DNA of 55,228 bases from Geosiphon pyriformis (Eukaryota > Glomeromycota > Glomeromycetes > Archaeosporales > Geosiphonaceae): assembly GCA_016748015.1 (NCBI GenBank), contig JAAOMT010000039.1:144293-199520 (forward strand), given 5' to 3'. The position numbers and the translations under genes are program-made. The notes beneath the pieces were generated by a model. That model did not search any database. It saw only the letters and a program-made list of their open reading frames with translations, and was not told the DNA's origin. This document shows positions 4,561 to 38,098 of the stretch, in pieces (the first letter of the stretch is position 1; each line of letters opens with the position of its first letter).

Positions 4561-6172
4561 TTAATATGTTTTTTTTGTAAAACTATACACAATGGGCATT
4601 CTTGTTACTAGTATAATTGAAGCGAAAGGTGAAAAGAGAATTTACTCTAAGCCAAAATAAAAATTCTTAAGTGTATTTTTGGTAAAACAGACAAGAAAAC
4701 CAGAAAGCTTGGTGTTGAAGCTTCAGTATTGGATTCTTCTACTGGTGGCTTAAACATAAAGGTAGTCGAATCTGGCAAAGCTTTTAAGCCTATGTCTTAG
4801 AGCAGTAAAGAGAACAGTTTTATAGTAGTATTAATAGAGAATCAAATATTAAGACATAAAGACGTGTTATATTAAAAGAACTACTTTTTTAAATAATAAA
4901 AAGATAAAGATTTCTAATACCTCAAATAACATGATATTATAGAACTTATATCAAGTTTTTTCTGTTGAAAATGTCTATTAAATAGCTAAACTTTAATATT
5001 AAAGTTGATAATATTATTTTTGGTCTCTTTCCTTTTTTGCCTAAAAAGAAACCTTTTTTTTAGTAGTTTTAAAAAAGAAAATCGAATTTAATTCAATAAA
5101 ATCTTATGGCTTAAACATTAGTCTGTCTGCAGTAAACAAGAAAAATTCTCAAGAAAAGTTAAAGCATATTAAAATTTTTTTTCACCAAGTAGATAATTTT
5201 AGAAAGATCTCTACTTTTCAAAATTCCAAAAGATTATTCAATTTACATTTACATCCAAATTAAGTCTAAACAAAGCTAAGAAATTGGCTGTAAAAAATAA
5301 CATTATTATTAATATTAATCTAAAACATATAAATATACATAAAAATTAAAAAATAATTATTAAAACAATTGTGAAATTAGTTAGATAATCAAGTTGCAGC
5401 TTATTAATTTGTGGTAAAAAGTTGTAATAAAATTTGCTGATTTTAAAATTGTTAAATTAATAGTTTATTTTGATTAAAAAAAATTTAGTGCATTTAACAA
5501 AAACTAATATTAACAAACAAATATAAATATCAAAAATCAACATTAAGTGTTTCTTTGTATTTTATTAATAAACACAATAACTTATAATTTTTTTAATATT
5601 TTGGCATTATATAATAAGAAAATATGTGTTATAAATTAGAATTTTGTGTTTTATAATTGTGTAAAATATATAATTATTTGTTTTAAAACCAATAAGTCTT
5701 TGATAAATGCTTTTTATATAGTTTGTGTTTTAAAAACATGAATTTGTGTTGAATTAATTTGGTTTTGTCTTTTTATATTAAATATAAACAAAGTGAACAT
5801 ATTATTATAAAATGTGATTTTATTGAGAAATATTCAGGTCAGATTAAGCCTATTAAGTAATAGCTAATGTATTTATATACTAAAAAACAGATTATTATTG
5901 TTTATTCTATTTTTTTTAAAAAATATAGAATTATGACTTGTTGATTTAAAATACAGTCTTATTGGTTCAAAAAACAAATAAATAAGTTGACAAAAAAATT
6001 AATATATATTTATATTAATAATTTTTTAGTTTTATCTTAAATATAAACTATTAATAACATTTTTTAAGCAGAATTAAAAGAGTGATATAATAATAAAAAA
6101 GAATTTAAGTGTGTTTATTAGCAATAAGACTGTTAATATCAAAAGTTTTTTGATTTTTAATATTAATGAAAA

Positions 6173-6364
6173 TAAACAATTTTAATTTATTTTAAAGTTT
6201 AATAAATTACTATTTTAATAATTAACTTAATTTAGAAATTTACTATGTGTAATATATGAGTATAAACAATTTTAATTTATTTTAAAGTTTAATAAATTAT
6301 TATTTTAATAATTAACTTAATTTAGAAATTTACTATGTGTAATATATGAGTATAAACAATTTTC
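6173..6364. repeat. 90-bp tandem duplication (2 copies plus partial third)
   Basis: The unit starts at the ATAAACAATTTTAATTT motif at about 6173, 6263 and (partial) 6353. The two full copies are 90 bp apart and differ at one base by my reading (..AAATTAC.. against ..AAATTAT..). The near identity implies a recent duplication inside otherwise old, decayed LINE sequence. Confidence 0.85.
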
Positions 6365-8816
6365 TTAAGCAAAAAACATAATAAAATAAAATAAAAATAT
6401 AAATAATTTAATTTTTATTGTTATTAAAACAAATTTAAAAATTAAATCAGATTTTGAATCATAAACAAATTTAATAAAATAAGAGTTTTTATTTTTGGTT
6501 TGAATTCTGGTTATTTGAATTTTGAATTTATAATTATTTTAAATAATAATTTAACAAAACATATCTGCAAAATTTTTAATGTGTTTAATTAATTTTTATC
6601 TGTTGTTATAAGTAATTGTATAATATAATAATTTATAATATAGTATTGTAAATTGATAATATAATCTGAAGGTTTTGGTATTTGAAGATTTTGGTTGATT
6701 GAATTTTTTATATAATAAACAAAAATTTATTAATAATAAGTAATTTTAAACAAGATAAATAATAATTTATATAATTGAATAGTGAATAATTATAGATAAT
6801 TTTATTAAAAAAAAATTGTTTTAATTGTTGAATTTTTAATTATTAAAGGTATTTAGTAAATATTTAATAAAAAAATTGCTTTTAATGCTTTTGTTATATA
6901 TATATAAATCTTTATAATACAAAATTTCTAAAATTTTTAATAATTTTTACACTTTTTTCAAGTTATTATTGGAATTTTTGAAATCTTTTTTGGTATTTTT
7001 AAAATTTCTGTTATTATGTTATTTACTGATTTTTAATATATAATTGGCTAATTTATGCTATATTTAATCATTAATTGTTTTTTTATATTACTTTATAAGT
7101 AATACTGTTTATTTACTGTTTAAAAATAGGCTTTTAATTGCTATTTTAAGTTTTTATACAGATATTTTTTTTGCAATTTAATTAAATTAAGGTTGTAACA
7201 TTAATATTATAACTATTAAAACAGTAAATAACTGTTTTTTTGTGGTTTTAAATAATAATTTTAACAAAAATAGCACTGAATAAAATGCTAACTTCAAAAA
7301 ATATTTGGATTTAAGCTTGATTAATTTTTTGATAAGAAAATTTATTATTAAAACTCTAACTTAAAAAAAATTTAAGAAAAATAAAAAAAGTTATTAATTA
7401 TAATTTTATTAATATATTATTTATAAATATTATAATCAAGCAAAAAATGCAAAGTATAAAATTTTTTTTAATACTTATTATAAAGCTATTTTTGTGTCAA
7501 TTAATTTAAATAGTTTTTTAAATATATAATTTATTGCTTTATAAAAACAAGTAAATAAAAACCGTTAAAATATAAAATTAAGAATATAAATAGCTTTAAG
7601 TAGAAACAGTTCAAAGTTTTTTTAAATAAATATAAATAATATAATAAATAAGTTTAAAAAACAAAAAAAATTTGAATAAAAAATAGACTTTTTTTAAAAG
7701 TTATATGTTTATTAATTAATAAAATTTTCTTTAAAGTTTGATTTATAAATTTGAAAAAAAACAGAAATAAAAGTTTTTTAAGTTCTTTAAATTAAAGCTT
7801 TTGGTGTTCAGAATTGCTAAAAAAATAAGATTAAAGTTTAATTATAAATTTAAAAGACTTTTATACATATAATATTTTTTAAAAGAGCAAATATTTTGTT
7901 AATTTAAAATATATAAATATAAATTCTGATATTAATAATATTAGTTTGATTTTGTTTAGTGTATAAAAATTTTATTAAGCTTTTAAGTTTTATAAATTCT
8001 AAATAATTAAAGAATTTAAAATTAAGTTTATTATTTTTAAGTACATAAAAAACTTTATTTGTAATAAAGAATTGTTTTACAATATTTATTTTAAAATATT
8101 GTCCTAAATTATTTAATTATTAAAAATAAGCTATTTTTAGAGCCTAAAAAAGTTAAATTTAAAATAAATAAGATAATAAAAAAATAAACTAAGAAACAAA
8201 TAATATTAAATAAAGTTTTTAATTTATAATACTGTTAGTATATTCTGTTAAATTATGTAAATAATAGGATGTTTTTAAAGTACTAAAAAGAATAAAATAC
8301 AAGTTGTTAAATGTAATCAAAATTTTGTTAAATAATAAGACTGCTAATTTGTTTGTTATTATAAATAAACTATAAAAACATTATAACAAATTTGTTTTAA
8401 GTTTTTTGTTAAATTTATTAAATATATATTTACTAAGTAAGTTAATTTTCAAATTATAAAAAAAGACTTGAAAATTAATAAAAAAAGTTTTAAAAAATAC
8501 TTAACTTATTATTTTAATTAAAACTATTAGAAAAATACTTTTTGATTAGATTTTTACATCTATATAAGAAGTTTTAAGTTTTTTATAGAAATAATTTTTG
8601 TTTTAAAAATACTTTAATTCAATCTTTTATTTAGTAATTAATATATTTTTTAATAATATAATTTAAATTAAAAATACTTAAATTATTATTTTATTTATTT
8701 AAATATTGTTAATAAGTTTTTAAAATTAATAATATTTTAATTAATAATAACAAAACAATAATTATTTTTATTAAACATATGATTAAATATTTTTTTAAAT
8801 ATTAATTAATTAATTA

Positions 8817-8830
8817 TTTTTTTTTATTTA
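8817..8830. repeat. Candidate target-site duplication, left copy
   Basis: TTTTTTTTTATTTA directly abuts the 3' end of the minus-strand LINE. The same 14 bases occur at 15602-15615, immediately outside the other end. T-run/A-rich junctions are typical LINE targets. The low complexity lowers certainty. Confidence 0.55.
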
Positions 8831-9008
8831 GCTTTTATGAGTACAGCTCAACTACTACCTAAGTACATAGAATTAACAAGACTTTAAATTAAGTGTGGCT
8901 CATGTGTTGTCAACATGTGACTGGCCACTCAGGCCAACTCAAAGCAATACTATGCACTCAAACCTTCCAGTACAGGAAAGTCATACAGAAAACCAAAATG
9001 CAAGCTTA

Positions 9009-12000
9009 CTAAACTAGAATACAAACCAAAACAAATGTGTACACCCAACCTGACCCAAAATCAAAAACTATTTTACAAGACCACACAGATGCCAGGCCAG
9101 ATATGATTGGAAACACAAAGCTATTTCTTGGCAAGAGACTGTGTTTCTCATAATACACTCTTAATTTGGCAGTCAGTATCTAAATAGAAGATCAATGACC
9201 TTCCACAAACTCACAGACCAGATTAATGACCAACAAACCCCCATCGAATTTAAAGCCTAACAAATGCACTGTGTTAGCCACCCATTTCTTCAACACAAAA
9301 CCCTTAGCCAGGACTATATACAAACTGTCTGACAATTCAACATTATGCAAGGAGTGAGTCACAGCACAATTAACATCACCAATTTCAGGCAAGCTAGTCC
9401 ATGTCTTAATTGTGTCAGAAATCAACTTTTGCTTGACATTAGCATCCCAGGCACATAAAAACATATGGTCAGAATCTTTAACCAAATCACAATAGATACA
9501 CACCATGCTAGGATAACTTGGTTTGTACCATTTTTTCTATACAGCCGTGGGCAGCCTATAATGGAGAGCCTTCATGAAGTAAGATTTCAGCACTGTAGTG
9601 ACAGAGCTGGAGAAGCCAGAGTAGATACCACCATCGGAATGCCAAACTTGAAAGGTTCAGCACATATCAAATTGTTTGACAAGATTCAAATCAACAATGC
9701 CACCCATACATTTGAACTTCCAGCCAACAAAATTAACAGCATCAAATAGACACCATATGAACTGACAAGTGTTTCCAAAAACAGATTGGCCTTCTACAGC
9801 AATAAATTGACATGCTATACTGACTGGCAGCACAAACTTAGATTTAGTGACAGCATCAGCAAAAAAGTCTGCATGTTTGTTACCAACCACTCCAGAGTGG
9901 CCCTTGACTTTATTTCAACAAACCAAAAGTTTCTTAGAAGCAATAGTGATATGAATGTGTTCCTTCTCAATCCAGCATTTATCGCAAAAATTGGGACCAA
10001 CAGAATTAACCAATGAAGCACACATGTCCAAGGAAGCCTGGCTATCTGTGAACAACATAACTGAGCTAGAAGTTGAAATGCATTCCAAAGCAAGAGCAAT
10101 GGCCTGAAGTTCCACCAGAGTCGAAGAAAGCAAACCATATACTCTAATCTCTACACTCAAGTCAACATCCGAGAAGTAAGCAGCAGTATCACCACAAGTG
10201 CCTGCAAAACCCAAACCTTTGACTGACCCATCTGTGTATACACTTACAATACCAGGCCTATTTTCAATAAGACAACCATTAGCAAAACCAAAATTGCATA
10301 AGTGTATGTCTGAAATAAAATAGTAGACCAAAGCACCAATGCTAGCTAGACCACCACTAAAAATGAATAAGACTAAAGAGACAAACCAACCAGGAACCCA
10401 ACCTTTGGGATCCAGTCTTTTCCATTGGCAAAAAGTGCTCCAAGTGAAGCACATGCCATTATGATCCAGAAGCTGATTTGCAAACACAATTCCGAATTTT
10501 CTTAAAGAGGCAATCACACTTAAGTATCACATCACACCCAAAACATTAGCAACAAGAACACCAACACCAGACTGGAAAACATTAAGAATATTATTGACCA
10601 ATGAAGACCCACATGATGCAAACATGTTGGTCATGCTGGCCAGAAAGCAATTGATTGGATTAACAGACAATTTAACCAGAAAACTAAGGGGTTGTTGGGG
10701 CATCCAACTGACAGTCTGTAGGTCCATGACTCTGTACTCAAACAACCTGCTGAGGATGCCACCAGAGTTGGCAAACCCAACCACACTGGCTAATAGATTT
10801 TCGGTCTGCAATTGGCTAAAAGATTTGAGACCATACATCTAAAGATAATATAAAGCCTTATTAGCAAAATTTTTAGGTAAGCTGGCTTTGATTTTCAGCC
10901 CTTTTCTAAGCAGTCTGTCTCATTTTTTACACACATGTGCTGAAACATAGCTAAATTAGATCCTGTAATTAACAATGGGCTGAAGCACAACAGACATCAG
11001 ATACAAAAATTGCTTGTCTAAAATGGTCTTCCTCAATATTAAATTGGTAAAAAACTGAACATCTGAGTGTGCTTTGGCAAGACTGGGTATAAAAAAACCA
11101 TTTGTAGACAAAAAGATGTCCAAGTATCTGTGTGGTTTCTTTTTTTTTGCTATTGAAATGACAGCTCCACTAATAAACAACCAAGGATTCTCTACTTTCA
11201 TGTTGATGGGTATGGCGACTGTTTTATCTGTGTTGATGGAGATGTTATTGACTCCAAAAAACTCACTTGCTATATCTAAAATGTTTTAAATAGCAGTTAT
11301 ACTATTACCAATCCATATTGTGTCATCCACAAAAACTTCAACAGCCAGAAAAGATGTCAAGCCACTTCTAAAATTTTTGAATCCAATCTATACCCAAATA
11401 AATCACCACAATACTTAATTTTGCAAAGCAAAGAATCATAAAAGATTCTCCACAACAAAGGCGAGAAAACTTCTCTTTGATCTAAATCATCATAGACAAC
11501 ATAACTATCTGTGAATCCAAAGTTAGTCATGACTCGATTGAATCTGCCATTGTGTAGGCTACCAAAAAATCTAATAAAACGGAGACACATCTTGATTCTA
11601 GCCAGACTATTATGTAGATGAAACTATCCAACAGAATTATATGCCTTTCACATATTCTGAAGCACCAGTCACAGCTCCTTATTCTTTTCCAAAGCATCTT
11701 TAACAATCAAACCAATAGCAAAAATTGGGATCTGTGTGGATGTACTTTTCAAAACCAAGAAATTGTCACCTTGTAGAACATTAAACTTACTACAAGTCAC
11801 AGAAATCCTGTCAGACAATATCTTAGACAATATCTTCTGAGATGTTTCAACTAAAGCAATTGGTTTGGTGTTTGTGAGAGTCCCCTTCCAATCATACAGT
11901 TTCGAAATCATAGACACCCATGTGTATTTCCAATGAACAGGCATTGCACCTAACACCAAACACACATTGAAAATATCTAGCAAACCACCCAAAACTTGCA

Positions 12001-13612
12001 CATCACCATGTTTCCAAAGCTTGTTAGGAATGCCAGACAAACCAGCAGCCTTACCATCAGGCAAACACTTGACCACTTAAAAAAATTTATCAGACCCTAT
12101 ATTGCACATAACTTTTAAGAAAGCATTATCATCAACATAACTTAGGGGAGCATATTGGGCAGCCCAGCGAGCAGGTAGAACATCAGGGATTGCACGCTTT
12201 TTCGTCCAACTCTCCATGATAGTGTCGACTGTAGATTTAACTTCACTAAACTCCAAAACTAAATCATTGTCAACCACCAAATGATCGAGGACCACCTTAT
12301 AAAAAGGTCATTCCAAAATGCTTTTAATCATATGGTTCTTGTCAGTACAAAAATTTTCCATGCACTTGTTAACCACTTTTCTAATAACAGCATCCCTGGT
12401 ATTCCTGGATTCAAAATACTTGGATCTATAGTATTTTTTTTTAACACTCAACAAATGGCCAAGAATTGCATCATGATCAGCACCATTATTAACCATGGCA
12501 CGAAATATGGAGGCTTCCTCAAAATCAACAACAGATCAGATGTCAACAAAGTGGTTAGCCACTGGATTCCAATACAAGCTCAAATTTTTTACCAGCTTGT
12601 AGATTAATAATTCTAGCTTAAAGAACTTTAAAGAAACCTTATTCCTTGAATACTCAAAATCATTAAACCAGAACTTAGAAAACACTTGATCAGCAGAGCA
12701 AACTACCACCTCCCTAAGAATATTCCATATTTTATCTAAATTACTGTCTTTTTTTGTGATGTCAAAGTCCACAAATCTCAACTGAAATTCACTAGAAAAA
12801 CACTCTCTGAATTGCAATCATTAATCATTACTAGCTGACTTAATTTTGAACTTCTATTTGTCTCTGTTAGTTTGCTTATGCAAGCTGTTCAAATTGACAT
12901 CCACAAAACCATCCAAACCAACTGAAACCGAGACTGCCTTATGATTAGACTCAAAAAAATCTGAAGCAGAACTAACAGCATGTCTGGTGACTGCAAAAGC
13001 CAAACTTGCACTAACAAAAACAAAGTCTATGGTCTTCTCAACCTCTCTAAAATTGCTTCATGTGAAAGCCTTGACCAAAGAAGATCTACTGAGTGAGTTA
13101 ACCAAATCCAAATCTGAACAGAACCTGAAACACATACTTCTTCTTGAACTATTTTTATTGAAATCCCCACCAATAACCAAGAAAGTACTAGAGTTGACAG
13201 CCTTAGCAATAAATGCATTAATCTCCAGAACTTGACTGAATTTAGCTCCAGTTGAAACACTAGCATATAGACTCAAAATTGAAACTAAAAGCTTGCCTTT
13301 GAACAAGAGCTGTACCAGAATAATCCAACCTGGAATTTTCTCAATTTTGCATACATAATGAGCCAGATTATTGTTCATGATTATTGCTACTCCAGCACCA
13401 AGAAAGCCCTTATCCAAGCCCGTCAAAAATATTCTTACTTCATCAAACTTATTGGCTATTTATGGCCTAATATTAGACTTCAACTTTGTTTCCATGATAA
13501 TAGAAACCATATTACCAGATTTTTTATGCCAACGAACAATGTCTTCCTGCTTGGCAGGAATATTGATACCCCGAACATTACAGGTAGCTATCTTCCAGAT
13601 CAAATCACTCAT
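9009..13612 (-). pseudogene. LINE ORF2 (endonuclease-reverse transcriptase-RNase H) with many nonsense codons
   Basis: ORF2 starts MSDLIWKIATCNVRG (APE-type endonuclease, N in motif I), with LVIGGDFNKN near 13180 and TIDFVFVS near 13020. RT: KAAGLSGIPNKLWKH near 12040, PIALVETSQKILSKILSDRI near 11900-11800, motif A degraded to LQNM-stop-KAYNSV near 11640, LDQREVFSPLLWRIF near 11470, and motif C FVDD at 11333-11322. RNase H: VYTDGS near 10240, ELQAIALALE near 10110, LFTDSQA near 10050, KGHSGVVGNKHAD near 9880. C-terminal module CIYCDLVKDSDHMFLC near 9490. All blocks from 13612 to about 11370 share one frame, and all blocks from about 11370 to 9009 share a second, so there is one frameshift near 11370. 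About 21 stops interrupt them, mostly at expected Trp, Arg or Gln codons. The catalytic Asp of motif A is Asn, so the RT would be inactive. Confidence 0.88.
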
Positions 13613-13614
13613 TA
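13610..13614 (-). promoter_or_regulatory. TAATG stop/start overlap between ORF1 and ORF2
   Basis: On the minus strand ORF1 ends TAA (13614-13612) and ORF2 begins ATG (13612-13610), sharing one A. A UAAUG overlap is the configuration reported for translational coupling (termination-reinitiation) of ORF2 in the LINE SART1. The sequence shows the overlap. Use of that mechanism here is inferred. Confidence 0.7.
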
Positions 13615-15482
13615 AAAAGAAGAAGAGGCCAATGAACTCGAACCAGCACAAATCAGCTTTAACTTTGCCAAAACAGAACCAATAGAGGCCTCAAAAGCCA
13701 CCAACTTAGATTCCAAACAGCCAATCTTGGTAGTCAAGATCTTTGAACTACTCAGACCCAATGTTGAAATACTAAGAAAAGCAGAGGAGGGGGATGATAG
13801 TACCAACTCAGAATCATCCATGACCACATCCACAACCAAATCCTCTTTGGCAGCAATCAAAATAGCTGAGACTTTAGGGAGGAAGTTGAAGCTCACAGCA
13901 CCAATTTCATGTTGCTGAGTTTTTGCATAATGTCAGAGACTTGGTCAGTTAGCAATTCTAAGGATTGTTCTAAAAAGATCAAACAAGCATCCAAAAATGA
14001 ATTGTCAACCGAGATGGGAGGGATACTGTTATTTAAACCTGAGATGCTAGAAAGAGAGGAACTGAAACCAGAAACAAAGTGAAAACCATCAGAAAAACCA
14101 GCAAGTGAGACCATCTGGATCCAAAACTTATTACTAAAAGCAGCAGGGCAAGATATTAGAACACTCTTTTTCTCATACAACTTAGCCAACTGAAGATAAC
14201 ATTCATCAGATACAACTCTTATAAATGGTTTTTTTAAAGGCTTAGAGGTAGTTGCAACAGATGCATCACATTTTAGAGCAGAATGACCAAACTTCCCACA
14301 TCTCTCACACCAAACTAGATCCATTCTTGTCCAAGAAAGTCTAACACTACCAAGAATTGGCTTCATGCAAAAGACAGATTCCAGATTATTATCAGATTCA
14401 AAACCAACTACTGTACAGCAAATCCTATTGCCAGTTCCCAGAGATCTGTTTATGACACAAGTTTTCCCATTAGTCTTTTCCAGAAGAGTCCTAAGATTAT
14501 ATGCTGTTGTTCCTATCAACAGAGTAAACAACAGCACCCTGAACTGATCCTTTGATGTCCAGGTCTCACAATCCCCTACTGTTTTGGCTATATACACAGA
14601 GTTTTTACCAATCAGAAATGACCATTTTGAGGCCAATGAATTAGCTTGGTCTGATTCAGCAAACTCCACTACAGTCTTTTGCCACATTCTCATTAGTTGA
14701 ATTTTGATTGACTTAATTTCCCCAAATTCAGATACTGCGGTGACAATTATGTCCTTAGACATGTCTATGGAAATTTCCTTAATCACTACAGCTTGATCTG
14801 ATCTTATTTTTTGTTTCTTAAGATTGCCATTTATGTCAATCCCTTTTTCTTTGGCCAATGATGTGGCCATCTCCATGCTTTTTTCTGACATAAACATTAA
14901 TTGGATAATCCCTTCAAATTTTGAGGGGGTAGTGGCTCCCCCAAAACCATTGACTGTTGAAAAAATTTTCCTAATTAACTGAGTCTTTGCCATTGCTAAT
15001 TTACCTTCTACAGCTGAGAGATTAATATCCAAAGCAAATAACTTTCTAATTGACACTTCCACAGAAGTCTTAATAATTTTAGGATCAATCCACTTTTTTT
15101 CTAAAGAGATAGGCAAGTGAGAAAGAAGCACAACTTCATTATCATCCATATGAAAATTAGGAGAGCCAAGTGGAGAACCAAAACCAGCACCAGTGTTGAC
15201 TCACTTTGCCTTAAATGTAGTAGCAGCTGAACCTAAAAAAGACTCACCATTTGTTCCAGACATGCTAACATCCTCATCCTCACCAGATAAACTCTCCACA
15301 TCAAAATAAACACTGCCACTAGATCCAAATTTGCTCAAGGATATATCCCTTTTATTACCAAAATGTTTTACATTACCAAGAACAACTTTTTTCTTCTGAG
15401 AAAAGAAGCCACCAGCAGAACCGTGAAAAGCATCCTTAAGAGCCTTCTTCTTAGGTGCAGTGCTACTAGCAGTAGTCTCCAT
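13612..15482 (-). pseudogene. LINE ORF1 (gag-like RNA-binding protein) with stop and frameshift
   Basis: Start METTASSTAPKKK at 15482; an upstream in-frame ATG exists at 15566. An in-frame TGA at 15203-15201 splits the frame, and reading resumes in the same frame with VNTGAGFGSPLGSPNFH. The long open part (15149-13893, 418 aa) contains an RRM-like region with VVIKEISIDMSKDII and IKSIKIQLMRMWQKTVVEF, then a retroviral-type zinc knuckle CERCGKFGHSALKC (CX2CX4HX4C) at about 14320-14280. The end of ORF1 is in another frame (about 13895-13612), so there is a second break near 13895. The final TAA overlaps the ORF2 ATG (TAATG at 13614-13610). Its role would be nucleic-acid binding in the RNP. The sequence is rich in Thr, Ile, Lys and Asn where relatives, as I recall, have Ala, Arg and Asp, which fits transition-type decay. 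Confidence 0.85.
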
Positions 15483-15601
15483 ATCCACGAAAAATAGGTT
15501 ACTATTAGATAAAAAAATATTGATATAGACTAAAAAAACAAAAAACTTCTTTTTTAGAAAATGCACTTTTTGGAGATTTGTGGAAGTAAGAGAGAAAGAA
15601 G

Positions 15602-15615
15602 TTTTTTTTTATTTA
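15602..15615. repeat. Candidate target-site duplication, right copy
   Basis: TTTTTTTTTATTTA, identical to 8817-8830, immediately beyond the 5' end of the minus-strand LINE. Confidence 0.55.
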
Positions 15616-17278
15616 TTTTTATTATAAAATAAAAAAACTGTACTTATATTTTAAAATTTTTCTATTAAAAAAATTGTTCAAATTTAATATAAAAAAGTAT
15701 ATTTAAATATTAGATTTTTTGCCAAAATAATATTAAAAAAATATATTTTAAATAAACAGTTTTTTTATTTGGTTTAGCAGTTTTGTAGTTATTAAATTTA
15801 ATTTAAGTTTGTGTTTAAAAGTATATATAATAAGTAAAACTTGCTAATTAAGAAAAAATTAAAAATTAAAATCAACTTATTTCAAAATTTTTTTAATAAA
15901 GCAATGTATTTTCTTTGTTATACATTTTAAAAAAAAACTTTTATAATAACTTTTATAAATATTAATAATTCTTTAATAGATTTTTAATAATAAGTCAATA
16001 AATTTACTAATTTTAAAATTTTTACTAAAATATTATTTAGTTTTTGAACAATTTTTTGGTTAAAACAATAAAAATTTTTTGAAGTGTAATATTTTTTTTG
16101 CTAATATTGTTTAAATATGTTTTAATAATTAAAAAAATTTCTATTATTAAAAAAACTTGATTTTAAAACTTAATTTTTACTTCTATTATAAATTTTATTA
16201 AAAAAAATAGTTTTATAAATAAAAATTTGTTTGTATTATTTAACTTTGTTTTGTTAATATTTTTGATTTTTCTTATTTACTTAAACATTTAAGTGTTTTT
16301 AATACATATATGTTAAAATAAACTTAATTTTTACAATTACTGCTAAATAAAAAGATAATATATTAATAATATAAATAAAATAAGAATTTATTTATTAATA
16401 AGTTTTTAATAAAAGATTTTAATCTAATAAAAACTGATTTAATATAATATTTTAACAGTTATTTAAAAATTAACTTATTAAATTGTAATTTAATTAGTTT
16501 TTATATTTATTTTATAAAGACTTTATACAAAAAATATTTATTATTGTGAAAAATAAACTTTATAATTTCAGTTAATTTAATGAAAATTATGTTTGTTGTA
16601 GTTTATAAGAAAACTCTAATTACATATTTTTGTGTATTTTAACATTTTTATAAAAAAAACTATTATAAAAAACTGTTTAAGTAAGTAAATTATTTTGGCT
16701 AATATGTTATTTATGTGTTTATTTGTTTTTTAGTGCTAAATAACATTAATATTAATGATTATATATATATAACTATTGTCAAAAAATTTTGTTTTTAAGA
16801 ATTAGTTATTTTAAGTTGTTTGTATTATTAAAAATATTGTTAAAATTAGTTTATATATTATAAATTTTGTTTATAATATGATTGTATACCACAAAGTAAA
16901 TATTTAGTTGCTATATTTTAAGCTAAAAGCTAAGTATAAAAAAATAAGTTTAATTTTTGATAATAAATTGGTTTTGTTAATACTTGTGATTTAATTGTAC
17001 TTGGCTTTAGAGATTTTGTTCATAGAAAAAGTTTTGCTTAAGATTGGCTGGTTAGTTTTGGTCTTGTTATTGGTTTGCAATTAGTTTTTAATGTTTTTTA
17101 TAGTCTTATAAATGTTTTTAATAGTTTGAGTATATAATGTAGTCTTGATTGATTTAAGTATTGCTTATGTATAAAAAAGACATAGCCTATACTTATTTTA
17201 GAATTTTTAATAATTGTATTGTAGTAGATAGTTGGAATATATTTAATAAATAAATAATAATAATAATAATAATAATTA
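15602..17278 (+). mobile_element. Ancient AT-decayed LINE, right part with 3' tail
   Basis: The AT-desert sequence resumes after the inserted LINE and grades into a less decayed 3' end (about 16940-17240). That end gives faint LINE C-terminal traces (LIVLGFRDF near 17000) and then an A/T tail ending in TAAATAAATAATAATAATAATAATAAT at 17245-17276. Such (AAT)n tails are typical 3' ends of these LINEs, as I recall. Together with 4560-8830 the interrupted element would be about 6 kb, the size of a full LINE. The middle is not recognisable as protein, so assignment of this half rests on position, tail and composition. Confidence 0.55.
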
Positions 17279-17620
17279 AAATTACATTTTATTGCAAAAT
17301 AGGTGATAATTTACTATTTTAAATAATTTGAATTATTATAAGGTTAAATTCTAATTTTAAGTTTATAATTTTATGTCAGTTTACAAAAATTATCAACAAA
17401 ATATTTGTAAAATATAAGTTTGTAGATGCAAAAAATTAATAAATATTATTTTTATTTGTTAATTTGTTTTTATTTGCTGCAAACAAAAACTTAAATCATT
17501 AAAATTCATGTTTTATTATCAATTGAATTTAATACCAAACAATATAAATTATTTTTAATTTATATTGTTTAATTTACAATTAAATTTTTTTAAAATTTAT
17601 TATTTAATTTATTCACTATT

Positions 17621-17636
17621 TCTATTATTTTTATTA

Positions 17637-17670
<34 letters not shown>
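17621..17670. repeat. (ATT)n microsatellite
   Basis: A nearly pure TTA/ATT trinucleotide run lies just right of the old LINE end. A second (AAT)n run, the LINE tail, lies at 17250-17276. Confidence 0.9.
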
Positions 17671-17672
<2 letters not shown>

Positions 17673-17767
17673 TGATTTTGCAACAATTTCAAAATTTGAT
17701 TAAATACAGTAATTAAATTATGCACATATTAATTTCAAATTTTTATCAAAATCCAAAATTTTTCGCA

Positions 17768-18620
17768 CACCGAAGTAGCAATATCCGATACCGAATGCAG
17801 CTCTGTCACTGATGACCTTTACAACAACCGCACCTTTCCACCAGAATCGACCTATCCTTATCCAATCTTCTGACCAGATCGATAATCTCAGCATCCTAAT
17901 TTCTGATCAAACCCTCCTTCTCATATAGGAACGCTTCTTAGCCGTATCCATCCAGACTCGTTGTCTCGGAAGATCCATGACCAATCTAACAAGTACCACA
18001 ACCTTGCCGTGGCTAGCTTTGCACACCCAAAATCCTATCCAAATCCACGAACCAATCGTTAAAAAACAAAACCCTTGGCCGGTACCACTGCTTGCCAACT
18101 TCAGATTTCCAAAAATCCTCAAAATCATTCAAAATTCAAAAACATGATCCGACGACTCTACTTCGCCACATCTAAAACATTTGGAGCTGGGATAATCCTT
18201 ATTGTATATTTTCATTCTCAACAACTCTCAATAAACCGCGGAGAACTTTCATTGCGTAACGAAATCCAGCCGACTTTCTTCTCGTGGTAGCCGACTTCAA
18301 AAGTGAATTTAGGTGCTAGACCATCACTATTTCGACGATATCACTGTCCACACATTTCTGCACTTTCTCAATTTTCTTAATAGCTTCATAAAAACCCTGA
18401 CATACCGCATAGCGCTGTAAAATATTGGAACACCGATACCGTTCACCAAAAACGGTTTTTCTCTAACCAAAAAATGTTCAGAAGGTTTAATTTTACGATA
18501 AAGAGTTCGCTCGCTTACATTATAAAAAGTTGCTAATTTATTTCAAGCATAGCCTTTTTTGTGTAAGTTGATTAAGTGCTGAGTTTCTAAGAAAAAATTT
18601 AATAACTTTGTATTATTCAT
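17768..18620 (-). pseudogene. Decayed transposon-like ORFs: helix-turn-helix segment and CX2C/H retroelement-type segment
   Basis: GC content jumps at about 17768. Minus strand from ATG 18620: MNNTKLLNFFLETQ, then a helix-turn-helix-like stretch LINLHKKGYA-stop-NKLATFYNVSERTLYR (TGA where Trp would fit) and IKPSEHFLVREKPFLVN. After a TAG at about 18329 the reading continues in shifted frames as LAPKFTFEVGYHEKKVGWIS, then YPSSKCFRCGEVESSDHVFE near 18190-18140, DFEDFWKSEVGKQWYRPR near 18110, and LWYLLDWSWIFRDN near 18000. The CX2C..H motif followed by Trp-rich sequence resembles the zinc-binding C-terminal region of retroelement polyproteins. Whether the helix-turn-helix part belongs to the same element is unknown. 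Several frameshifts make this a relic. Confidence 0.5.
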
Positions 18621-21400: not shown

Positions 21401-22909
21401 ATGGCGCCCCAAAAACTCCTTCACGCTTTATCTCGAGACTTCGGGACCTTATTGAATAACGAAATATTCGTAGATGTTAGGATTATCATCGGTGATGGTT
21501 CTAATACTAAAACTTTTCATGCTTATTCGCCGATTTTAGCAGCAAGATCCTCCTATTTTGCTGTAGCACTCTCTAGTAATTGGGTTAAAAGAGAAAATAA
21601 CACCATCATCTTCTCTAAGCCTAATATTTCACCACAAATGTTTGAGATGATACTTCGGTAAGTTTAGTTTGCTTAAAATATACTTGCTAATATTTTATTC
21701 ATACATTTGATTATTGTTTTATCTAGATATTTGTATAGTGGTGAAATATCTCTTAAGGAATACGGAGTACCTATAATATTAGAATTGCTTGTTGCCGCCG
21801 ATGAGCTTATTATGGAAGATCTAATTAGCCACCTTGAAGACTATCTAATTAAACAACATGAAGAAGAGTTGAAAGAAAACTTTTTCACTTTACGTGAAAC
21901 ATCCAATAGGCATGAATCTTTTAAAAAGCTCCAAGATTTTTTTACCAACATAACTGCTAGAAATCCAGCTGCAATCTTTAATTCAAAAGAGTTCACTAAC
22001 CTCAACAAAAGTGCTTTAGCTTCAATTCTATGCAGAGATGACCTTAATTTAGAAGAATCTCAAATATGGGAAAAGATTATAGAATGGGGAGTTGCCAAAT
22101 CGGGTAGCAATATTAAAGCAGAGGAAATTCTAAATTGGACAAATGAAAACTTTGAGGCCTTTAAGGAATCAATTGAAGAGCTTCTACCTTTAATACGGTT
22201 CTTTCATATATCCTCAACTGTATTCTATCACAAAGTAAAGCCATTTGGAAGAATTTTACCTAAAACTTTATATCAAGATCTTTTACATCATTATCTAGTA
22301 CCGGGTAGTCAGCAAAAATCTGTAGACGCTCAGCCATTTCGCCTTCAACTAGATATAGAATCGAAGCTTCTTTATTTGCATAATGTGAGGCAGCTTGATC
22401 ACTGGGTTCAGGACAAAGATAACAATACTCCTTTTCAAAACCAACTTGGAAATAGTTTTGACTTGTTACTTCGAGGCAGTCGAGATGGATTTACCCCAGG
22501 TGATTTTCATCGATTATGCAATCACAGAGGATCCACAATTAGTGTTATCAAAGTGAAAGAAACTGGTCAACTGATTGGTGGATATAGTCAAAATCCTTGG
22601 GCTTCTTGCAATAGTTGGATATATGGAACAGAAAGTTTTATTTTTTCTCTCGGAGATGGCAAAGCTGAAAATGCTAAACTTAGCAAATCAATTAACGAAC
22701 GGGGACCTTTTGATAAATCAACTTATGGACCCTATTTCGGTATGCGTAATATTGTAATAGGCGGTAGTGATTTTCAAAATAGTCCTGGATGCTATTGTCA
22801 TAATGATTCATCATATGAGGATGTAATAATGCCTGGTTCTGAAAATGAACGAGTGTCCTTCTTTGTTGAGGAGTATGAAGTTTTTAAAATCAGCGAAATA
22901 CGTTATTGA
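21401..22909 (+). CDS. BTB-BACK-TLDc domain protein
   Basis: Exon 1 is 21401-21657 and exon 2 21727-22909, with intron GTAAGT..TCTAG (69 nt). Spliced length is 479 aa. BTB at about residues 20-125: VDVRIIIGD, FHAYSPILAARSSYF, then RYLYSGEISLKEY across the splice. BACK-like helices at about 130-235 (ILCRDDLNLEESQIWEKIIE, EWGVAKSG). TLDc at about 315-478: LLLRGSRDGFTPGDFHRLCN, TISVIKVKETGQLIGGYS, SFIFSLGDG, YGPYFG.., IVIGGSDFQ, FFVEEYEVFKI. BTB-BACK regions usually act as Cullin-3 adaptors. TLDc domains are linked to oxidative-stress protection and V-ATPase regulation. This combination is hugely expanded in Rhizophagus, from general knowledge. No frame defects. Its first exon and upstream region are duplicated in inverted orientation at 1-445, and a pogo-like insertion sits about 260 bp upstream. 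Confidence 0.93.
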
Positions 22910-31106: not shown

Positions 31107-33440
31107 ATTCGAAAAGGCATCAATTTGTGAAAATTAAGGAGACTTGAATCCCTTGGACAAAAAAACTTTATAACTTTTTGTAATTATATATTCCACAGAA
31201 TTTCAACACATACAAATAGATTTAACTTTGTACAGCTCATAGATCATTTTTACTTCATCCCAATTCATTTGTTATATATGCTTCAAACCATTGACTTTCC
31301 CAAACTATCATATCATTTGCATTTTTTCATCATCATTCCCTTAATTTCTGTTAATCCCAAATCCACACAATAATAATTTTAAAAAATGGTGTATACTTTT
31401 CATTTTTTCCTTCGTTTCACTTGAACTTTTCATTCTTGTATATACAGTCAATCTCTGGACCTATTTTATGAACCAAACATTTAGCAAAATAGTAAATTTT
31501 CACTTTTCAGAATGAGGCAAAAAGTGAAATAGTCGTGTTAAAGGACGAAACTTAAATTTTTAATAATCTTAATGTTTGAATTGGTTTTGACTCGATAAAA
31601 CCAAAGTCAATTCATTTTTTTATGAAATCCTTTTAATTGTGACAGTTACTTTAATTTAATTATTTCTAATGTGACAATGAGTTTAATTCAAAAAAAATAA
31701 AAACTACAAAAAAATCAAGTTCAAATGATTCTATCTTGTAATGAATTTAATATTGCAGCAAGAACCACGTTGACGTTGTGTAACAACAAAGAATAAATAA
31801 TAATGTTATTTTGAGGTTTTTAAAATTTCATTGGGTGGGCGCGTTTATTATAACCAGTTAGTTCGGTTAAAGACATCAAAACTGACGCGATCAAATATTT
31901 TTAATTACAAATTTATTCTTTATCAATGGCACTTTTTTCTTTAATTTCAAATTATAAATTCTCCATTTCAGGATTATTTTTTTTCTAAAGTATAAAAATA
32001 ATTTTTAAAGGAGTTCCAAAACAAATTCTTGGAGTATAGAGTTCTGCTCTTTTATATTATCCTAAAAAATATAAAAGAAAGAAATTTACTAATTAATTTA
32101 TTAATTAATGCAAAAGAGAGAAAATTTTTTTATTATATCTGTTTAATCTGTAGGAATTATATATATATATATATCTATATATATATTGTAATTATTTATC
32201 AAATATTAAAAACATTTGATAAAAAATGATTTTTCTTTTTTTTAGAATTTATAACAATATATATAAAAAGATATCAACAGGATGTTTATTGATAAAAATA
32301 TGATTATTGCTTTAAAAAATGGTTTATTAAAATAAAAATTTTTAATAAATATTAATTAAATTATATAATTAATTATTTTTTTACTCATTTTCAAATGAAC
32401 TTAAAAATTTAATTTTAATCAATTTAAAAAATTATTTTTATTTTATTTTATTGGTTTCATAATAATTGGAATTAAGTTCTTATTTTATAATAATTTTTAT
32501 ATATTAATTATATATTACTTAATTTTTTCTAATTATTAGTTTTTTAGTGTTAAGAAAATATTATTTTAAATAATAATCAAATTAAAAACTATTTATTGAC
32601 TATTATTTTTATGTATTTTCATAAATAACTAGAAATAATAATAAAATATTAAGTTTTATAATTCCTTAATTTTTTTTTCAATTGAATAAAATTTTAATAT
32701 TTTTATTTATTAACATTTTAAAATATTTTAATAAATAATAAGTTAAAAATAAAATGAATAATGTAATACTATTGTTTTTAAATCAACTAAAATTTAAAGG
32801 TTTTAATTTTTTATTATATATAAAATAATATTTTAGCAATATCAATTTTATAAATATTAAATTAATTAATTTAAAAGATTAAAAATTTATGTTTTAATAA
32901 GCATTAATATTTTTAATAATTAAAAAAGTTTTATTAAAAAAATTGAATTAAATAAAATTAAAGCTTTTTATTTATAAAAACAATAATTTATTAATCTTAA
33001 ATTTTTAAGTTAAAATATAATATATTCAAACAAAAAATTAATTCGAAAATTAAAAATTAAAAATAATATTTGTAATTTCAATAAAAAAAACAAATTAAAA
33101 ACAAAATTTATTTTTTATACAAGTTATTTATTTTAATAAATTGATAATTTTTGTATTAAATAAAATATTTAATTTTATTTATTATTAATAATAGTTAATT
33201 AATTAAATTATATTTTTTAAAACAATATTTTTATTACTTTTAATTTGATAATAGGTATTAAAATACCAAAAAATATTTAATTTCAAATTTTAATAACATA
33301 TTTTTTAAAATATAAATTTTTAATTATTATAGTAAATATTTTATTCAAAACAAATATTCTTAATTATAAAATAAGCAATTTTATATCAAATTATCAATAG
33401 AGTTTTAAATTTAAAAAATAAGAAATAAGTTTTTATTTAA

Positions 33441-33508
33441 AAAACAATTTTTTGTTTCTTAATACATTAAAAACAATTTTTTGTTTCTTAATACATTAAA
33501 AACAATAT
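33441..33508. repeat. 29-bp tandem duplication
   Basis: A unit containing AACAATTTTTTGTTTCTTAA recurs at 29-bp spacing (33441 and 33470), followed by a partial third start at 33499. The two copies are identical by eye. Confidence 0.8.
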
Positions 33509-34014
33509 ATATACAACTATTTATAATTAATTTAATAATAAAAATAATTTATTAAATATTAAAGTATTTAATTCAATATTTAATAATAATAATAATAATT
33601 TAATTGTTATGTTAAATATGTAAATATTAAAAAATTTAAAATAAATTTAAAATAATTAAATCTAAATATAACACATATATTTTTTATTAATTATAATAAG
33701 TATGTATTATAATTTTTAATATTTATTTATAATTTGTTATTGAAAAAATTGGCAAAAATTACAACAATAAAATTAAATATTATAAATATTTTTATTATAT
33801 TTAATTAAATTTTAAACTAATTAGAAATTTAATATATAAACTTTTCATTTTATTCTATTTTTATTATTATTTATAACTCAAAAATTTTTTTGGTGTTCAA
33901 TAGCATTAATCTTAAATAAATTTAATTTTGTTATAAATTTCAATTAAATTATATTAATTATATATATTAATTAATAAATTATAAATAAATTTTAAGTGTT
34001 TTGAAAATGATTTA

Positions 34015-34095
34015 TTACTTTTTTTTATAATTGCTTACAACTTAATCGTCATACATTAGAAGTGGATCGCACGGCACGTGACCAGTTACTCACAC
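34015..34095 (-). repeat. Possible truncated LINE 3' end
   Basis: An isolated GC-richer island of about 75 bp lies in AT-desert. On the minus strand it reads GTGAGTAACTGGTCACGTGC, then GATCCACTTCTAATGTATGA, and ends TTGTAAGCAATTATAAAAAA, followed by A/T. The order (GC-richer unique sequence, then A-rich tail) and the partial similarity of GTAACTGGTCACGTG to GAGTGGCCAGTCACATG in the 3' UTR of the 8831-15601 LINE suggest a 5'-truncated LINE or SINE end. Weak evidence. Confidence 0.25.
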
Positions 34096-34952
34096 ATTAA
34101 TGTTTATATCTAGTTTAAAAATAAAATTTATTTATATTAATAGAATTTTTAAAAAAATTAATTCAAAAAAATTAATTTTCTATTATATAATATTTGTATT
34201 TTTGATTAATTATTAATTTAATAATAATAAATTTGAAATAAAAAATAATATTAATCAATTATTATTAAGTGTAAATATTATATTTTAACATAATTGCAAA
34301 TGTATTTAGACTTTTTATGCTTAAAATATATATAGTTTTTTTGAAATCCGTTCTCATTAGTTTTTGTTTTTCACAATTTGTTACTTTTTTCTTTGAAATC
34401 ATTGAAATTGAGCGTAAATTAAAAATAGTGGGACAAGCCTAATTTTAATCTAAAAGTTTAATTTCTGATTATATTCAAATATAAATTTTGTCACGTGTTA
34501 ATTTAATGTCTATTTATATAATACACAATGTTATTGGCCGATTCGGCGATTTATATATCAACCATTAATTATCAAGAATTCTTGGGAACGAGATTTTCAA
34601 AATTTACCTTGTAAATAAAATAAATGGCACAATGGTCGACTTCTCTACTTATATTATTCTTTCCTTTCGATGACCCCATTTGTTGGTTGGACAAAAAGCT
34701 TTTTTTTAGTTACATCATGCAGAATTCAGGCAATAAATAGAAATATGTGTGACGTTTCTCCATTATGCACCACACAAGTCTTTTTCGTTTCCCTTTCATG
34801 AGGAACAAAATATCGAATTTCCCCAAACTCTCTTTTTACTCCTCGACGTTGTTTACGCTACAACTTTAATCACTTTTTTTCACATTTCAAAAAAACTCAA
34901 CCCACTGATTCAAATTTCACTCGCTCCATGTTTTAATTCATTTAACCATTAA

Positions 34953-37900
34953 ATGCCTTCCGAAAAAAAGAAACATTTTATATCTCCACCTCCTGGTTTA
35001 GATTTCGTTACTCCACCTCATGATTCTTTGGTCGACGACCTAAGGTACGCGCTAGAACATGCGCGCGAATTATTCCCTGACATCGCATGGGAATTTACAC
35101 TTGCACTTACGCCCACAATTGTTTATGCCCATAAATGTATGTCAATCGTTGCAATAGTTCTATTATCTACTTTTTATCAAAGTTAGAAATCTATACAAAA
35201 TCAAACAACATTGATGAGTCTGATAATTAACGTCCTTTGACGCACCTGTGTTTTGAATTTAAACAATTATTCATGAATGTCATTTTACATGTCTCTATTG
35301 AAAGCTACAAAATCATTGACAATATATTTATTTATTTTCTAGCCATATTATACGCACGAAGTTCACGTACCTTTCAGGAAAATTTTTTAAAAATCAAAGA
35401 TGCAAATGGAATGTCAGTGCGGTCCATGAGAATGTCAAATCCGGAGCCAATAATTGTAAAAACAGAAGCAAATCCATTTTCACTTCGGCAGGAATTAAAA
35501 TTTTTTTACACGGGTGAAGAAGGTAGTGAAGAGTTTTTGGCTGCAGTTGATACTACGGCTGAACTTGAACAAGACAAATTGAAAGAGGATTTACTTTACA
35601 TGCTTAAATCAAAACTTTATACGGACGTTGAGTTGTTACTGTCCATTTCTGAGGATTCTCTGGATATTTTCCCGGAAGAGGACTTTACACCCACTTCACA
35701 TCGTGCCCATCGATTTATGCTTGCTTCGAGGTCAGAATACTTCAAAGCTATGCTGAACTCCCAATTCATTGAGGCTCGCCTATCCACAATTCACTTAGAT
35801 GCTAGCATTTTTACCCCAACATCTCTCAACTTGATTCTTACATTCGTTTACACTGGAAATCTATCATCCTCATCAAAACCTCTAACCTTGGAAACATGTG
35901 AAATGGTGTGGATAGGAGCAGATTTTCTTGGCATAAAATCATTATGTGACGAATGTGTACATCGTATCGCAACAAAGGTTCACTCATTTTCATGTACGTG
36001 CGCCGAATGTCAGGCAGTTATTCCGCGAGTAGCTGGTTTTGCTAAAGAGCATCATGTTGATATGCTTTGGCAAGGATCGCTGCACGTGTTGTCACAAGGC
36101 TTCGATAGTATGTGGCCTCAAAAAGCCTTTGCAGAATTAGAGGAAAATATTAGGGAGGAGGTTCTTTTGAATTTATTAGCCAAAATTCAAAATAGTAATA
36201 TTGTTGAAACTTTCAGAGGATGCCGAAAAATACTTGCTATTATTGAGGTTAAAGGTATCGGATTACCTTGGATAGAGATAATACGTGGGATGGCTAACCA
36301 TGTCCGTTCATATACAGCTGGTATATTGGTCGATGATTTTCAGCAGCTCTGTGAAGAGGATAAAGAATTTTTAAATTGCGTGGATGGAGTTGGCTTCAGC
36401 TCAGATTTATTAGAAGACATTATGAAGATTGTAGTCGAAGAAGGTCTAACGGAGCAAAACGCTGGAACTGTACTTAATTGTATCACTGGTAATTTATTGT
36501 TGAGGGAAGCTGTTCTGGATGCAGAGAGTGTGGAAACGAAGCGAATCCTACTTCAAGCGAAACAAAATGTCTCCGATTATATCAAAAAAAGGTGGATTGG
36601 GGTAAAACAGCATGGTGGGTTCAGCGAGTTAAAAGATTGGCTTTTAGATGAGTTTGCACAAGGTAAAAGCCATTCACGAATATTTGGTTTTCTGTTTTTA
36701 ATATTTTAGCCATTGATATTATCACCTTCGCAATGTCGTTTTTTAATGATAAATATTTTATATTTCTAGATCTTGGTATTACAAAAGCGGAATTGACGGA
36801 AACTGTTAGTGAACCAAAACCAAAATCTCGAACACCTGTGACAACAAATGGTATTCGTACCAACGGAAAAACAACCTCCCCCTCTACTTCACCTAAAGGT
36901 AGAACTACTCCATCAACAAAATCATCCTTATCGCTGGGGTCTTCCTCAACAGTTACAAAGACCATTTCAACATTTACCACAATCTCAACAACCAATTCAA
37001 CAGGTTCTTCCAGCCCAAAAACAATTCGAAGATCCGCCACAACATCGGTGGCATCCTCGACTGGTAGTTCAAAAGCTTCTGATCTTTCTGCTGCCAAAAA
37101 AAGCAAAAGTGTACGCATTGTGACAACTCCAGCAACATTTGGACGACCAACAAGAGCGAGTGTTTTGCGTCAGAAAGCCTTAGCAGAAGCTGCTGCTAAA
37201 AATCCAGTTAAGCAGAGAACAAAGACCATGCCTGAACGAATTTCCAATTCTAGCACAAATAGTGTCAGCTCTCTACCGCCGGTCGCTGGATTAAGTAAAT
37301 CTAAATCAGCTAGCGCATTAAACTCTCGCGTGACGCGGCCAGATTCAAAATCCTCACTAAATGTGCCAGGAGTATCGACACCTCCAGCTCGAGGTCGTAT
37401 TTCAACAAAACAAACAGCATCGGCAGCTTCTTCACGGGCAAGTTCTATTTCATCGATTCGTTCATCAAAGTCACCTTCTATTTCACCTAGCCGTTTTGGG
37501 GGTGTACGTCAAACTCGAGCTAGTATCCTTCGTCAACTTAAGTTTGACGAAACAGAACAACGTCGTGGCCGGGATCGACAACGTAAAGCTTCATCTCCAA
37601 CATCTTCAAGGGCAAGCTCGATAGCTTCCGTGTCATCTGTTGCAAGTTCAACAAACTCTTCAAACGTTGTGCATCCAAAAAGATCAGGATCACAATATTC
37701 CACATCTACCAGCATGACAACCGCATCTACTGGGTCAATCAGTAGTTTACCAGCTAAACCTCATCAAACGAAATTATCTACCACAAAAGATCCTGACATT
37801 TCTGTGGGTAGGAGAGTAATTCTACCGACAAAAAACAATTCTCCTGGTACTATCCAGTTTTTGGGCGAAACAGAGTTTGCCAGGGGTCATTGGGTGGGAA

Positions 37901-38098
37901 TAGCACTAGATAATCCAGGTAAGTTATTGGTTATATTATGAATTGTTTTAAATTTTTAATGAATGGATACTTACATATTTTTAATTTGCAACACATTTAG
38001 TTGGGAAGAACAACGGGACTGTTGCCAACATACAGTACTTTGAAACTTCTCCAAATCAAGGCATCTTTGTGCGACCTGACTCAATATTAATAATATAA
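34953..38098 (+). CDS. Tandem BTB / BACK-like / CAP-Gly protein
   Basis: Four exons: 34953-35136, 35343-36662, 36770-37918, 38001-38098 (introns 206, 107 and 82 nt). Spliced length is 916 aa. An in-frame TAA directly precedes the ATG, fixing the start. Residues 30-110 give a first, divergent BTB (LALTPTIVYAHKSILYARSS, the core formed across the splice). Residues about 150-275 give a second BTB (TDVELLLSISED, HRAHRFMLASRSEYFKAMLN, LILTFVYTGNL, GADFLGIKSLCDECV). Then come BACK-like helices to about 500. A 330-residue Ser/Thr/Arg-rich disordered linker follows, with repeated TRASILRQ/TRASVLRQKA motifs. The C-terminal CAP-Gly domain (about 845-915) has VGRRVILPT, ARGHWVGIALDNPVGKNNGT and QYFETSPNQGIFVRP. 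CAP-Gly domains bind tubulin or EB1 C-termini, so this is probably a microtubule-associated adaptor, perhaps linking BTB/Cullin-3 functions to microtubules (inference). Confidence 0.92.

Follow-up and report, generated by a model that had tools for sequence, protein, structure and literature searches.

The window analysed here is a 55,228-nucleotide stretch of contig JAAOMT010000039.1 of Geosiphon pyriformis, and its subject is a decayed copy of an element of the long interspersed nuclear element (LINE) type, carried on the minus strand at approximately 8720..15630. This copy and its relatives elsewhere in the genome have decayed by C>T change on both strands (C:G>T:A) in every sequence context, with T favoured immediately 5' of the cytosine, a pattern which is neither repeat-induced point mutation (RIP) nor CpG deamination in the form in which a first-pass annotation, made from the letters of the window, had offered them. 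The strong, directional C>T and G>A decay described in that annotation was confirmed by comparison of copies, with 894 C:G transitions to 19 C:G transversions among the closest relatives of the window copy and a similar skew in two further repeat families. The decay is secure for the LINE and well supported for the other two families.

The genome (124.7 Mb in 406 contigs) was searched and at least 41 LINE matches, the window's own included, were found, from which 14 loci were taken. The main alignment consisted of the window copy and seven loci; six rows were counted and the remaining two, L004 and L006, served as outgroup. The six counted copies (the window copy with L001, L002, L003, L005 and L007, hereafter LINE A) form a star at 86-88% pairwise identity, and the outgroup loci are a sister pair with 78-79% identity to the longer LINE A copies. 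L007 and L002 were cut to their homologous parts. L007 (C218:279626-289038) is interrupted by a 9.4 kb stretch. At its start this stretch consists of a repeat of very high copy number (3339 first-look candidates), which contains an open frame 312 amino acids long or more. No convincing Pfam family was found for that frame, and as a resemblance to long terminal repeat elements is a guess the repeat is left unnamed and is referred to as the inserted repeat; its set was the query plus the 16 best-ranked of 40 other matches listed. A second LINE set, group C, comprised nine matches at 83% identity or more, query included; L009, L011 and L013 were placed in it, and L008, L010, L012 and L014 enter no count. 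For the gene control the eight best-ranked were used from 43 matches, one of them the window's own. A strict count accepted only a change private to one copy with all remaining copies agreeing. Relaxed-majority counts overstate A>G and T>C through parallel C>T, and strict counts were therefore preferred where numbers sufficed.

Under the strict rule C:G>T:A change had occurred at 894 of 7782 C:G sites in LINE A (11.5%), compared with 19 C:G transversions (0.24%) and A:T transitions at 136 of 19068 sites, and the outgroup rule gave 984 C:G transitions to 16 transversions. The annotation had proposed that the two strands be compared, and in LINE A their rates were equal (C>T 368/3141, 0.117; G>A 526/4641, 0.113). 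The three codon positions were alike (0.096-0.128), the six copies shared one rate (chi2 2.17, 5 degrees of freedom, p=0.83), and clusters or strand runs were found in none of the six, the fraction of adjacent same-strand changes being close to that of permuted data (p 0.30-0.58). Strict ratios of C:G transitions to transversions were 309:8 in the nine copies of group C and 92:5 in the 17 copies of the inserted repeat.

The neighbouring base, which the same annotation had suggested counting, gave no preference for CpA. In LINE A 353 of 3166 CpA sites had changed (11.1%) versus 479 of 4248 CpC and CpT sites (11.3%, p=0.88), and under relaxed rules CpA in group C and the inserted repeat either ranked between CpC and CpT or was lower than both. 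Change at CpG was about fourfold faster than elsewhere in LINE A (22/53 versus 832/7414 non-CpG sites, 11.2%) and threefold faster in the inserted repeat under the relaxed rule (28/165 versus 289/5212), with zero CpG sites scored in group C. Since 832 of 7414 non-CpG sites in LINE A had changed, CpG methylation alone is insufficient, and these 832 transitions, set beside the 19 transversions counted over C:G sites of any context, stand above the background ratio of transitions to transversions. Outside CpG, the rate at TpC over that at ApC and GpC was 2.34 in LINE A, 2.21 in group C and 2.52 in the inserted repeat (strict, 80% and 85% rules respectively; p<=5e-13 each), and a 5' T gave a higher rate than A or G for either strand of all three families; the corresponding ratio in the gene family was 1.30 and not significant (p=0.44). 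Within CpG a 5' T added nothing visible in LINE A (TCG 8/19, ACG 8/18), and with TCG contributing 8 of the 854 LINE A events of scored context the target is not restricted to TpCpG. The observed/expected ratio of CpG was 0.13 in the LINE versus 0.61-0.86 in genes, and the composite RIP index was -0.74 in the LINE and -0.61 and -0.52 in two genes. As to the annotation's choice between RIP and methylcytosine deamination, the first does not hold, given the indifference to CpA and the unskewed tandem gene duplicates described below; the second holds for CpG and leaves the non-CpG events over.

Duplicated genes served as the non-transposon control. The window carries a BACK-TLD gene (21677..22909, plus strand; Pfam TLD and BACK) which belongs to a tandem family. 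Dense BTB/BACK-TLD copies at 73-93% identity, in both orientations, were observed on C168 and C136, with more on other contigs. The size of the genome, its AT-richness and this BTB-TLD family are consistent with a place in the Glomeromycotina. Seven non-transposon duplicate pairs (83-92% identical) gave 1.4-4.9 transitions per C:G transversion, whereas four within-group LINE pairs gave 38-54; a fifth LINE pair, the window copy against L004, crosses groups and had the lowest LINE ratio, 9.4. The non-coding flanks of BTB/BACK-TLD pairs gave 64:28, 49:10 and 52:19. Ratios in three further pairs of the family were 1.4-2.3 to 1, and two methyltransferase genes compared with each other gave 40:12. 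One pairwise contrast, LINE 865:16 against gene flank 64:28, had p=4e-20. By strict count the non-coding part of the gene family held 41 C:G>T:A changes and nine C:G transversions at 635 C:G sites (81:28 over all sites), which differs from the 894:19 of LINE A (Fisher p=4e-6). These controls offer few events, some under coding constraint, all from duplicated DNA of one genome; no duplicate was found for window positions 35000-38200, which hence provide no control. Transversions reached 1.4% in the gene family versus 0.24% in the LINE, so the gene duplicates are older and the contrast is one of ratio to transversions. The annotation had named a match with neutral AT-biased decay of other DNA as the outcome that would speak against it; as far as duplicated DNA can tell, the LINE does not match the seven pairs. 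Fixed differences between the two LINE groups were 245:52 or 4.7 to 1, a figure in which coding constraint should, if anything, raise the share of transitions. The spectrum was therefore ordinary as long as the lineages were active, and the skew arose mostly after insertion.

The annotation had started from the second open reading frame (ORF2; 9010..13612, minus strand), in which it counted about 21 stops and a single frameshift near 11370 and from which it proposed decay by stop-creating transitions with few indels. We count 21 stops in 1533 codons, and the frame change near 11375 is a 25-base deletion at 11374..11375 (minus strand), a gap against all seven other copies and private to the window copy. 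When each stop was compared codon by codon with up to seven other copies, nine were single G>A changes, one a double G>A, four C>T and one G>T. Two more are TGA where most other copies have CAA, and both would come from CGA, a CpG; at the remaining four the commonest codon among the other copies is likewise a stop. Sixteen of the 21 fit C:G>T:A change. Over the whole element the window copy has five unique indels (by the script's rule) against 219 unique substitutions, and the latter include 74 C>T and 102 G>A changes (176 together) and a single transversion at a C or G, so the proposal stands. The decayed residues named in the annotation also proved to be G>A on comparison of copies, the other copies reading GAT or GAC in 6/7 at the QNM site of reverse transcriptase motif A, GAT in 5/7 at the KAYN site, GGA in 3/7 at the QR site and GAG in 2/6 at the GNK site.

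The remaining layout of the element is as follows. Its outer limits were set where homology to other copies stops; L001, L003, L004 and L006 match it at 79-87% identity and end near common points, and no target-site duplication was found. ORF2 includes an RNase H domain (9852..10247, minus strand; Pfam RNase_H 43 bits, E=6.7e-11) and a weak endonuclease-like domain (12971..13588, minus strand), whose E value of 7e-4 for Pfam Exo_endo_phos does not reach the curated cut-off. For the reverse transcriptase Pfam gave no match in the decayed frame, where the motifs were seen by eye. ORF1 (13893..15608, minus strand) has 572 codons and two in-frame stops, the second being its end, and carries a zinc-knuckle-like motif with a CLIP1_ZNF match below cut-off. 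Its small number of stops is explained by codon usage, and protection of ORF1 from mutation was rejected: there are 19 Trp and Gln codons in ORF1 versus 66 in ORF2, for which 3.3 and 11.9 new stops respectively are expected, and the C:G>T:A rates are similar (213/1933 and 629/5261).

The LINE is flanked by two AT-rich islands, the limits of which were chosen after viewing the profile. The first (5001..8900) has 14.1% GC and a CpG observed/expected ratio of 0.11, and TpC is depleted relative to CpT (163 versus 259, p=3e-6), as it is in the island on the other side of the LINE (15650..17200; 46 versus 102, p=5e-6); CpG is lacking from both. In fixed 2-kb bins the depletion was weaker (p=0.002 for 6001-8000, p=0.06 for 16001-18000) and several other bins were TpC-rich. 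A third island (31800-34300) was not depleted (TpC 107, CpT 101). The island at 5001..8900 is possibly an older relic of the C>T process, and AT-rich DNA in the window may have two origins.

Genes for cytosine methyltransferases, among which the annotation had suggested that Masc/RID-type members be sought, are present. PF00145 gave 10 matches in seven genes (best candidates only, exons read by eye): a DNMT1-like gene on C96, two DIM-2-like genes on C355 and C327, two DNMT2-like genes on C307 and C346, and a stand-alone pair on C318 (788280-789372 and 820713-821336; L015, L017, L019) about 32 kb apart. The DNMT2 and DIM-2 labels are presumptive, drawn partly from motifs known for these enzymes. 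In the PDB the C355 gene best matches a 1244-1456-residue cytosine methyltransferase, a chain which we take to be DIM-2. The C318 pair are about 90% alike over 0.9 kb; the copy that was read has PCQ and ENV, and neither is clearly RID or DNMT1. Motif VI was ENV in the six of seven genes where it could be made out (all but L019), and the EQT or EET which characterizes motif VI of RID/Masc1 (PMC6709928; like the other papers below, cited from part of its text) was seen in none of these six; terms for motif VI were not found in PMC2432034. Separately, frames in L053 (C346:421000-424200), lying directly upstream of a DNMT2-like gene, resemble Sel1 repeats by eye.

Loss of uracil glycosylase (UNG) was considered as a cause and rejected. 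PF03167 gave one unconvincing match and the GQDPYH codon pattern none, but TIGR00628 (ung) gave three adjacent matches at C271:277695-278345, none reaching the whole-protein cut-off, which suggest that UNG is probably present there; a repair-gene control, PF00730, gave one match. As PF03167 missed the probable UNG, absences in family searches of this genome are weak evidence. With UNG probably present, C>T change in all contexts fits deamination of 5-methylcytosine better than that of cytosine to uracil.

We therefore favour, with a probability of roughly 0.5, steady deamination of 5-methylcytosine at both CpG and non-CpG sites of silenced, methylated repeats. After insertion, repeat copies would decay steadily by C:G>T:A in all contexts of both strands, at a rate which peaks at CpG and is some 2.3-fold higher at a C with T, rather than a purine, on its 5' side. 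We infer that CpG methylation would be kept by the DNMT1-type enzyme and that much non-CpG cytosine would be methylated by the DIM-2-type enzymes, spontaneous deamination then giving a T:G product which would escape the uracil glycosylase seemingly encoded. In the inserted repeat the C>T rate climbs with other substitutions (rho 0.51, p=0.03), which favours a slow clock; in group C the same relation was not significant (rho 0.62, p=0.08). In R. irregularis 32.5-49.5% of cytosines were methylated by liquid chromatography-mass spectrometry (PMC8298701), and 13.8% of cytosines lie in CG sites, 30.8% of these sites being highly methylated (PMC8647823), figures which together mean that non-CpG methylation is extensive or that one value is off.

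Several observations weigh against this explanation. The excess at CpG is no more than three- to fourfold, and no methyltransferase with a 5'-T preference was found documented in the literature. The best PDB matches of the C327 gene (L020) tie between DNMT1 and a DIM-2-type chain. At 6.5% per C:G site versus 11.5% in the LINE, C>T change in the non-coding part of the gene family is not small. The skew is less uniform among pairs of the inserted repeat (56:0, 65:2 and only 68:7), and group C copies are overdispersed (p=6e-12). Strict strand rates are unequal, C>T exceeding G>A in group C (0.130 versus 0.089) and falling short of it in the inserted repeat (0.027 versus 0.046); relaxed rules narrow the gap (0.141/0.131 and 0.057/0.062), and for the opposite differences we offer no explanation beyond small, filtered counts. 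The mass spectrometric value for R. irregularis could be inflated, and that literature may not apply to this genome, relatedness being itself inferred. In Phycomyces, where both DNMT1 and Dim-2 are present, methylation is low and stands higher at CG than at non-CG sites (PMC7862722).

A RIP-like enzymatic mutator preferring TpC, in which a DIM-2, RID or C318-type methyltransferase turns C straight into T within silenced repeats, perhaps in mitosis, would also produce near-pure C>T on both strands with the skew in repeats, and the stand-alone pair on C318 would be at hand for it. Mitotic C>T mutation of repeats that depends on Dim2 is known from Zymoseptoria tritici, likewise a genome with a DIM-2-type enzyme, but there more than 98% of C>T falls at CpA and CpG is not highly mutated (PMC8016269), whereas the present repeats change most at CpG and favour a 5' T. 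The TpCpG hypermutation of Microbotryum and other Pucciniomycotina (PMC5381629, in part) is similar in being RIP-like, non-CpA and 5'-T directed, but here most events lie outside CpG. As the shared rate in LINE A and the tracking of other substitutions in the inserted repeat point to a slow clock, and motif VI is ENV in the genes read, we regard an enzymatic mutator as rather unlikely. Classical premeiotic RIP, CpA-directed and triggered by homology, shares with our data the C:G>T:A change of repeats on both strands and the destruction of reading frames known from Neurospora and other Pezizomycotina, and the composite indices of the two LINE-flanking islands are positive (0.15 and 0.42). It is nevertheless highly implausible: besides the indifference to CpA, the negative index of the LINE and a RID-type triad unseen in six of the seven methyltransferase genes, duplicated genes that share 92-93% identity across more than 1.7 kb are without skew (a test qualified by selection on genes and by their greater age), and equal rates in LINE A argue against a premeiotic pulse.

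Genome-wide AT-biased mutation with CpG deamination, under which the LINE would be special only through its neutrality, gains from the AT-richness of non-coding DNA and from the gene family, where non-coding C:G>T:A change (41/635) outpaces A:T transition (27/1897). It appears improbable, since the flanks of gene duplicates fall far from about 40:1, the gene family has no significant TpC bias, fixed differences between LINE groups are unskewed and CpG is retained in genes but not in the LINE. Methyl-CpG deamination as known from methylated transposons likewise gives decay of CpG on both strands but not events that are mostly non-CpG. The TpC preference is what would be expected of a deaminase of the AID/APOBEC kind that works on single-stranded DNA or complementary DNA (cDNA) during retrotransposition. 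The equal strand rates and lack of strand runs led us to reject strand-biased cDNA editing in LINE A, and with the absence of clusters, the CpG excess and the climb of inserted-repeat rates with other substitutions they make such a deaminase very unlikely in general, although no search aimed at deaminase genes was made. A signature of ultraviolet light was also rejected, tandem CC>TT changes showing no clear excess in the three families (17, 15 and 2 versus 11.6, 13.9 and 2.5 expected), the first being slightly high. Long-read base calls can be disturbed by modified bases, but an artefact of assembly or base calling where cytosines are modified is scarcely credible with copy-specific differences at about 11% of C:G sites, few indels and, again, rates that climb with other substitutions.

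The C>T decay of the repeats, TpC-biased and not directed at CpA, is genuine; the methylation mechanism and any taxonomic significance are proposals. Arbuscular mycorrhizal fungi are said to have DNMT1, DNMT2, DNMT5, DIM-2 and RID (PMC8298701). A kingdom-wide k-mer screen placed C>T defence signatures in ascomycetes only (PMC12543289), and RIP was reportedly undetected in the mycorrhizal Gigaspora margarita (PMC8647823, PMC7082362), as far as the excerpts of these papers go. RIP outside Dikarya has been suggested for Entomophthorales from the composite index (PMC11105155, in part), an index by which the window copy would score as clean, its value being near that of genes. No report of TpC-biased repeat decay in mycorrhizal fungi was found among the titles and abstracts listed by searches on RIP, methylation and decay, subscription literature being largely outside the search.

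The defence of fungal genomes by C>T change is mostly regarded as CpA-directed RIP, and a repeat-specific C>T process of another context would be hard to detect by CpA indices in young copies. We tentatively suggest, as a possibility we hold with some doubt, that a lineage outside Dikarya, supposed to be free of RIP, has an equivalent of it, in which extensive TpC-favoured non-CpG methylation would be followed by gradual erasure through C>T change with neither meiosis nor homology recognition, duplicated genes being exempt and the flanking AT-rich islands the end product. Such a process predicts non-CpG methylation and could explain how transposons are disarmed in fungi without known sex.

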